Made by a program: the position numbers and the translations under genes
From: Caulobacter radicis
GTDB lineage: Bacteria > Pseudomonadota > Alphaproteobacteria > Caulobacterales > Caulobacteraceae
NCBI RefSeq assembly: GCF_003094615.1
Contig: NZ_QDKO01000017.1
Span: 1 to 64,000 of the forward strand
Length of the DNA stretch: 64,000 nucleotides
Direction of reading: 5' to 3'
Notes under the pieces: generated by a model
What the model saw: only the letters and a program-made list of their open reading frames with translations
Told to the model about the DNA's origin: nothing
The model's database searches: none
Shown here: piece after piece, positions 12,752 through 56,331 of the stretch
How positions within the stretch are numbered: the first letter of the stretch is position 1
How the letters are laid out: each line of letters begins with the position of its first letter

Positions 12752-12891
12752 CTCCCGTCATTCCCGCCCTTGTGGCGGGAAGCCCTCCATCAGCCGCAAG
12801 GGCCGGAGTGGCGGACTGCCAGGCAGTCCGCTGGCGCTTCACATGCGAGCGGAACAAGGGGTTCCCGCCACAAGGGCGGGAATGACGGGAG
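12752..12891. repeat. 140-bp palindromic intergenic element, copy a
   Basis: First of five copies in the window. The left arm starts CTCCCGTCATTCCCGCC and the right arm is its inverted complement ending at 12891. Each arm contains its own hairpin (TTCCCGCC, loop CTTGT or ACAAG, GGCGGGAA). The centre has a separate stem, GCGGACTGCC, one-base loop, GGCAGTCCGC. It lies between two leftward genes (SRPBCC upstream, DinB further right) and fills most of the 247-bp gap. I see no clear target-site duplication. Confidence 0.92.
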
Positions 12892-18456: not shown

Positions 18457-18464
18457 TTTCTCCC

Positions 18465-18580
18465 TTCCCCCTCGATGGGGGAAGGGTCGGGGATGGGGGT
18501 GACTGCCGAGTTGGCGACGGCGCAGCGTCCGACGCCGCACCACCCCCACCCCTGCCCCTCCCCCATCAAGGGGGAGGGAA
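18465..18580. repeat. Inverted repeat between convergent genes (GGGGGA-rich arms)
   Basis: The arms at about 18465-18502 and 18540-18580 are imperfect complements built on CCCTTCCCCCTCGATGGGGG and CCCCCATCAAGGGGGAGGG, with about 40 bp between them. It fills the gap between the stops of the DUF6065 and acyltransferase genes. It may act as a bidirectional terminator, but no run of T follows the stems, so a dispersed REP-like element is more likely. Confidence 0.8.
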
Positions 18581-18586
18581 TTGGGA

Positions 18587-28051: not shown

Positions 28052-28190
28052 TCCCGTCATTCCCGCCCTTGTGGCGGGAACCCCTCTGGCGGCCGCGAGG
28101 GCGGATGGGGCGGCGTGCTGAGCACGCCGCCGGCGCCTCCCGTATCAGCGGAACCAGGGTTTCTCGCCACAAGGGCGAGAATGACGGGAG
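28052..28190. repeat. 140-bp palindromic intergenic element, copy b
   Basis: This copy has the same outer arms as copy a but with a telling difference: in the right-hand arm hairpin, TTCCCGCC/GGCGGGAA has become TTCTCGCC/GGCGAGAA, so both sides changed and pairing is kept. The central stem is GGCGTGCT/AGCACGCC. It lies between the start of the metallophosphatase gene and the stop of the aldo/keto reductase gene, both leftward. Confidence 0.92.
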
Positions 28191-42390: not shown

Positions 42391-42493
42391 GCGTCCTTCG
42401 AGGCTCGCCTGCCGGCTCGCACCTCAGGATGAGGAATTCAGTGCAATGAGATCCTCATCCTGAGGCGCCCGCGCAGCGGGCCTCGAAGGACGC
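42391..42493. repeat. REP-type inverted repeat, long form
   Basis: The arms at 42391-42434 and 42452-42493 share GCGTCCTTCGAGGC(C/T)CGC and CTCAGGATGAGGA with their complements, leaving a 17-bp centre. The core (CCTTCGA ... CTCAGGATGAG) is the same as in the repeat at 38123, with an extra GC-rich insert in each arm. It sits between convergent stops of the 109-aa gene and the serine hydrolase. Confidence 0.88.
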
Positions 42494-44643: not shown

Positions 44644-44783
44644 CTCCCGTCATTCCCGCCCTTGTGGCGGGAACCCCTCTGTCGGCCGCAAGGGCAGGAG
44701 GGGCGGCGTGCTCGGCACGCCGCTTGCGTCTCGCGTGTCAGCGGAACCAGAGGTTCCCGCCACAAGGGCGGGAATGACGGGAG
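44644..44783. repeat. 140-bp palindromic intergenic element, copy d
   Basis: The outer arms are nearly identical to copy c. The central stem is GCGGCGTGC, TCG loop, GCACGCCGC. It lies between the convergent stops of the hydroxyacid dehydrogenase and pdxY. Its asymmetric middle sequence shows that copy e lies in the opposite orientation. Confidence 0.92.
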
Positions 44784-56192: not shown

Positions 56193-56331
56193 CTCCCGTC
56201 ATTCCCGCCCTTGTGCCGGGAAACCCTGGCTCCACACGCATCGTGAAGCGCAAGCGGCGTGCCGGCACGCCGCCTCTCCCGCCCTTGCGGCTGACAGAGG
56301 GGTTCCCGCCACAAGGGCGGGAATGACGGGA
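56193..56331. repeat. 140-bp palindromic intergenic element, copy e (inverted)
   Basis: The arms match the other copies, but the asymmetric internal blocks (CGCAAG, CTGACAGAGGGG) read as the reverse complement of copy d, so this copy is inverted. The central stem is a perfect GCGGCGTGCCGGCACGCCGC. The left arm hairpin has one substitution (GCCGGGAA for GGCGGGAA) that is not compensated. It lies between convergent stops. Confidence 0.92.

Follow-up and report, generated by a model that had tools for sequence, protein, structure and literature searches.

Head-to-head CGTC-tagged REP dimers behind gene ends in Caulobacter and the turnover of their sites

Inverted pairs of REP sequences lying in gene gaps are familiar from the BIMEs of Escherichia coli, some of which are mosaic between repeat types. 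Two groups of repeats lie closest to the family considered here: the REPINs, described as copied by RAYT transposases in the parts of the reports consulted (Bertels and Rainey, 2011, PMC3116915; PMC8049555), and the CGTC-tagged REPs surveyed by Di Nocera et al. (2013; PMC3733652). In the portion of the 2013 survey consulted, REPs in general take up positions near gene 3' ends much like those found here, tyrosine transposase genes have no CGTC REPs at their flanks, REPtrons may be lost via deletion, and C. crescentus is named as CGTC-positive. The same portion leaves open how CGTC REPs spread, a question that is sharpened here and not solved. Among the papers listed by a literature search on the Caulobacter repeat itself, none dealt with it beyond PMC3733652, PMC3116915, PMC8049555, PMC2229807 and PMC10969869.

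The window, by which is meant the whole stretch of 64,000 nucleotides of Caulobacter radicis DNA that was analysed, lies within contig C17 of a genome (G000) of 5.57 Mb in 47 contigs that is 100% complete. All five copies of the palindromic family that the initial annotation had placed in this window were verified; they measure 139-140 bp each and align end to end. Their positions and parts are as follows.

12752..12891, plus strand: copy c1, between same-strand genes, 20 bp past the stop of the right-hand minus-strand gene
12761..12781, plus strand: left arm hairpin of c1, TTCCCGCC-CTTGT-GGCGGGAA, 0 mismatches
12810..12832, plus strand: central stem of c1, GGCGGACTGC / GCAGTCCGCT, with covariation across 30 copies
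12862..12882, minus strand: right arm hairpin of c1, 0 mismatches
28052..28190, plus strand: copy c2, between same-strand genes, 22 bp past a stop codon
39536..39674, plus strand: copy c3, between divergent genes
44644..44783, plus strand: copy c4, between convergent genes, 19 and 9 bp past their stops; from their translations the neighbours are putatively 2-hydroxyacid dehydrogenase-like and pyridoxal kinase-like
56193..56331, minus strand: copy c5, between convergent genes, in orientation opposite to the other four

An independent gene caller returned the gene-gap contexts first reported, same-strand for c1 and c2, divergent for c3 and convergent for c4 and c5. A gene adjoining c4 has its relatives in Caulobacter, among them C. 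zeae and C. endophyticus, and further-removed ones in Phenylobacterium and unnamed Alphaproteobacteria.

Every one of the five window copies folds into a long stable hairpin (z -8.3 to -12.4), and none of 200 shuffles was equally stable. Two inverted arms, each of sequence CGTCATTCCCGCC-CTTGT-GGCGGGAA, flank a spacer of ~80 bp and face each other with their hairpin starts ~100 bp apart, and each arm holds a CGTC-tagged hairpin of its own, TTCCCGCC-CTTGT-GGCGGGAA; the near-identity of the arms, their mutual inversion and the separate hairpins had all been correctly described for the five window copies. The arm stem is of 8 bp and the loop of 5 nt, the range given for CGTC REPs being a stem of 8-9 bp and a loop of 4-5 nt. 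In nearly all of 30 copies an unpaired CGTC stands outermost in each REP, ahead of the stem, and in most copies the stem is followed by a tail of CCC or CCT. The earlier description of the copies as near-identical holds for the arms, which diverge at 1.09% of positions (32/2928, a figure in which intact arms are favoured by the picking of copies on arm similarity), and fails for the rest: whole copies, scored by identity to the consensus, reach 89-96%, and spacers are 75-78% alike, averaging 78% between copies of this genome. Within the spacer lies a covarying central stem of the form GGCGGCGTGC/GCACGCCGCT, with variants. Among 30 own copies 98.3% of cells are paired, and two-sided changes occupy 22 cells, shuffles giving 5.3 (sd 1.7) and a slid stem 0-1. 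The arms vary too little for their own hairpins to be proven by covariation: in the local arm pairs of 61 doublets (36 own and 25 from the relative G005) double changes number 3, at one single pair, and one-sided changes preserve the pairing in 2 cases and disrupt it in 8. The copies are bordered at either end by a weak symmetric motif of a few AT-rich bases followed by GGG, which is also seen by eye in another genome of the genus, G461, and is possibly a target preference. Its interpretation as the terminator tract of the upstream gene was rejected on finding it identical whether the side faced the 3' or the 5' end of a gene. Insertion at hairpin targets through flank complementarity was also rejected, the left and right flanks of a copy pairing no better than flanks of different copies.

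The high copy number that five copies in 64 kb had suggested is borne out by the genome, in which 125 arms (65+60) occur at <=3 mismatches, against 5 (2+3) for the reversed pattern. At least 40 full-length copies are present (40 of 182 candidates scored), with perfect arms in 35 doublets. Within the genus, arms at <=2 mismatches were found in 34 of 61 genomes and perfect-arm doublets in 30 of 75, the number per genome ranging from 0 to a maximum of 41 in G462. A class-wide sample of 385 genomes, in which C. radicis was the sole member of its genus, gave the exact arm in that one genome. A family-wide sample searched at <=1 mismatch gave 16 of 149, made up of 14 of the 23 Caulobacter genomes and 2 of 126 others, both from one second genus of which 6 genomes were sampled. 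Two genomes of this second genus (G431 and G528) carry a related arm in 25 and 56 places, in nearly every case with CTTGA, or a variant, as the loop, and same-orientation pairs ~110 bp apart occur among these arms. A subtype is recognisable in G461, where the central stem GGCGAAGTGC/GCACTTCGC recurs in 7 of 9 copies with a near variant in an eighth (loci L226-L234); these copies were selected for perfect arms, their spacers average 85% identity, and the tail beyond CGG is less conserved than in G000. At the sites viewed head-to-head dimers predominate and solo REPs are a minority. As separate observations on G005, the family arms of the 1.28 Mb that was fetched, at 29+31, are about matched in number by a second CGTC-type repeat, CGTCATCCCGG (26+26), and the exact-arm sites of the chromosome, merged by hand, concentrate in its dnaA-centred half (30/37, p 0.0002).

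The doublets lie behind genes. By gap type, as assigned with a simple GC-frame gene caller, 34 of the 61 doublets are tandem, 25 convergent and 2 divergent; the comparison gaps in the 1.28 Mb of G005 number 682, 207 and 206, respectively (n=1095), so that divergent gaps are avoided (p 0.0009). A gene 3' end adjoins 59/61 doublets, at a distance of 5-40 bp on 68 of 84 sides (median 20.5). For 30 of 34 tandem copies the stop is closer than the next start, and where at least 100 bp of the gap is free the copy stands within 40 bp of the stop in 22/25, the uniform expectation being 6.4. Class C group II introns are expected to hold a fixed orientation to the gene; an orientation of this sort toward the adjoining gene was considered for the doublets and rejected, since orientation was found to be mixed.

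Comparison of orthologous gaps, which had been proposed as a check at the outset, demonstrated that sites differ between relatives and may be present, empty, collapsed, flipped or replaced. G019 and G004 lack the element at the c1 site, where G005 and G021 hold ~1 kb of other DNA that looks gene-like; the c2 element is likewise missing in G019 and G004, with a different palindromic family at the site in G005. The c3 element is common to G019, in equal orientation and with a spacer 92% identical, is missing in G004 and G021, and has in the corresponding region of G005 a solo REP ~15 bp further along. At the c4 site G005 has a same-orientation doublet with a different central stem, G021 a remnant, and G019 and G004 other palindromic families. 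At the c5 site G005 has a doublet of opposite orientation, G019 another family, and G021 split arms (L097, 16144-16943), which lie ~750 bp apart around unrelated DNA with small ORFs. Two other places in the window may be noted alongside these: a palindromic element of CCCTTCCCCCTCGATGGGGGAAGGG type at 18460-18585, where G005 has a doublet of the present family, and at 42395 a single unit of the repeat motif CGTCCTTCGAGGCTCG, the type found at the c2 site of G005.

Extension of this comparison to 38 own sites (36 doublets and 2 solos) against the 1.28 Mb of G005 left 13 without a paired ortholog in the fetched sequence. The remaining 25, classed by hand from their sequences, are occupied in G005 by 7 doublets, 6 other palindromic families, 5 solos and 4 stretches of other DNA, and 3 are clean empty sites. 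Of the tandem and convergent gaps of G005, 889 in all, only 32 hold family arms, so the presence of such arms at 12 of 25 orthologous sites is far above chance; co-occupancy of sites is owed in part to inheritance. The content of the sites turns over, as spacer identity at shared sites barely exceeds that of random pairs (0.77-0.85 for the 7 shared doublets, mean 0.805, vs 0.769, sd 0.054, for all own-G005 pairs), the true partner ranking 4 to 15 of 25, and as 5/7 shared doublets are reversed. Another reversed pair, own L056 and L220 of G019, is 82.5% alike once turned. In-place inversion was rejected as the sole cause of the flips, given the near-random spacers at shared sites, and exchange in place may have occurred at some sites, where the flanks are similar. 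Comparison of flanks in 11 pairs yielded a mean z of 1.3; the highest values came at L046 and L028, and coding sequence close to the element confounds the comparison. Some sites, by the similarity of their flanks, look inherited with altered content, and the flank sequences are ambiguous in that they would fit both new insertion and exchange. A hybrid in G004 at the 18460-18585 site, combining the core of another family with an outer arm of the present one, points to exchange. Solo REPs are symmetric, the product expected from deletion between the 8-bp repeats of both arms, and the empty sites together with the G461 subtype support movement in the not too distant past. The outcomes named in the initial annotation as refuting its proposal did not occur: the genome has more than 10 copies, and the sites are not uniform among relatives.

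The doublets could be ordinary RAYT-driven REPINs whose spreading Y1 transposase has since been lost, is restricted to certain strains or falls in an assembly gap. Their build is REPIN-like, RAYTs are described as copying REPINs in what was consulted of PMC3116915 and PMC8049555, and the loss of REPtrons by deletion is noted in the consulted part of Di Nocera et al. (PMC3733652). The Y1 profile PF01797, positive in E. coli and C. vibrioides controls, is matched in 16/61 genus genomes, among them the carriers G015 (24 arms) and G044 (18 arms). Against this, a search for the RAYT-type gene that the initial annotation had suggested looking for gave 0 matches to PF01797 in the complete G000 and 0 in the single-contig G005, and none at E up to 10 in eight further carriers with 6-41 perfect doublets; G003, like G005, is a Y1-lacking carrier in a single contig. 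Y1 was present in 2/22 genomes with at least 10 arms vs 14/39 others (p 0.03) and in 3/28 with at least 5 arms vs 13/33 others (p 0.02), a negative association that is gone at 20 or more arms (1/9 vs 15/52, p 0.42), all of these p values ignoring relatedness among the genomes. A test for linked transposases found none at the G000 doublets and none with arms at the 12 Y1 loci that were fetched of 24 listed, the best approach to the arm there having 8-9 mismatches of 24, and in the consulted part of the 2013 survey CGTC REPs never flank tyrosine transposase genes (PMC3733652). A RAYT origin of this ordinary kind is accordingly judged unlikely.

Mobilisation in trans as a MITE was the other suggestion made for these elements; read as a deleted IS with ~30-bp terminal inverted repeats moved by a DDE-type transposase, it is a very improbable one. 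The long inverted arms agree with it, and the outer AT-rich/GGG motif could reflect a target preference of such an enzyme; no positive support emerged, there being neither target duplications nor a matching IS among the solo and split arms viewed. The earlier remark that no clear target duplication is visible proved correct, for no 5-bp direct repeats accompany 36 own copies (matching offsets within 1 bp, offsets 0-13), and no flanking direct repeats of 5-10 bp accompany 9 G461 copies. An autonomous element was sought among the solo arms and the G021 split arms and none was seen: each solo arm examined is a doublet in collapsed, symmetric form rather than the end of a longer element, and in the interior of the G021 arms, the sole wide pair found, 2 of 14 small ORFs were run against Pfam and neither exceeded a cut-off. 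The c4 element matched nothing in phage and plasmid collections. More can be said for host-kept RNA elements, in which a hairpin past the stop would protect or end the mRNA and copies, of whatever palindromic family, would be kept in place by selection, since the doublets are placed 5-40 bp past stops, the same sites in relatives are filled by other palindromic families, and the central stem covaries between nearly invariant arms. With 7/25 sites empty or holding other DNA in the close relative G005, 0-41 doublets per genome within one genus, 0 Rfam matches within the window and no intrinsic terminator found at c4, retention of this kind as the whole explanation is still rather unlikely. An equation with the CIR elements, the CcrM-associated intergenic repeats of Caulobacter (Chen and Shapiro, 2003), has practically nothing to recommend it beyond the genus, a similar length and an intergenic location (consulted parts of PMC10969869 and PMC2229807); CIRs are defined by a conserved GANTC (CcrM) site, and the identity was rejected on this character, which is found in 0/61 doublet cores where ~4 would be expected at window density, and CIRs are drawn in the consulted part of PMC2229807 as two arms with no end-to-end pairing, whereas the doublets pair end to end.

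The explanation that probably best accommodates these data as a whole combines an enzyme acting in trans with selective persistence. The arms would be recognised as hairpins by a trans-acting enzyme other than a Y1 tyrosine transposase; copies landing in genes or promoters would be lost and those behind genes would persist, perhaps aided by an effect on mRNA 3' ends. The content of occupied sites may be swapped, either by new insertion or by exchange of copies through the identical inverted arms, and decay to solo REPs may proceed by a deletion that joins the 8-bp repeat of one arm to that of the other. A bolder suggestion, and a somewhat doubtful one, is that the doublets are still spreading with no HUH/Y1 transposase. 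Either an undescribed enzyme would be at work, or host recombination would use the identical inverted arms to copy cassettes from one gene-end site to another and to flip them, and different palindromic families would compete for the positions behind stops. With sites both empty and filled, forms that have collapsed or flipped, the subtype and the Y1-less carriers, a search for the machinery, and for any effect on mRNA 3' ends, becomes practical, and Caulobacter is an easily handled genus in which to conduct it.

Set beside the known systems, the family consists of CGTC-tagged REP head-to-head dimers with a REPIN-like build. The initial reading as a REP doublet or BIME is upheld by the anatomy (CGTC tag, stem of 8 bp, loop of 5 nt), the inverted pairing of units in gene gaps, the high copy number, and presence or absence from species to species. 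From the BIMEs of E. coli the doublets differ in REP sequence. With the CIR elements they share genus, length and intergenic site, and differ in having end-to-end pairing and no GANTC. With the REPINs, as presented in the consulted part of Bertels and Rainey (2011; PMC3116915), they have in common the inverted REP pair, the diverse spacer, the hairpin and singlets as remnants; REPINs accompany RAYT transposases, whereas most rich Caulobacter carriers are without them, and the doublets are thus close to REPINs in build, with the RAYT lacking in G000 and the richest carriers tested. The agreement with the CGTC REPs, as far as the consulted part of Di Nocera et al. (2013; PMC3733652) describes them, extends to the tag, a TT-starting 8-bp stem with a 5-nt loop, dimers with CGTC outward and structured spacers of up to ~100 bp, location near gene 3' ends and the lack of a linked transposase, and the tail differs, being usually CCA in that group and CC(C/T) in the Caulobacter doublets. 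CGTC REP dimers have been described before as a kind, and the Caulobacter doublet family is a further member of it.
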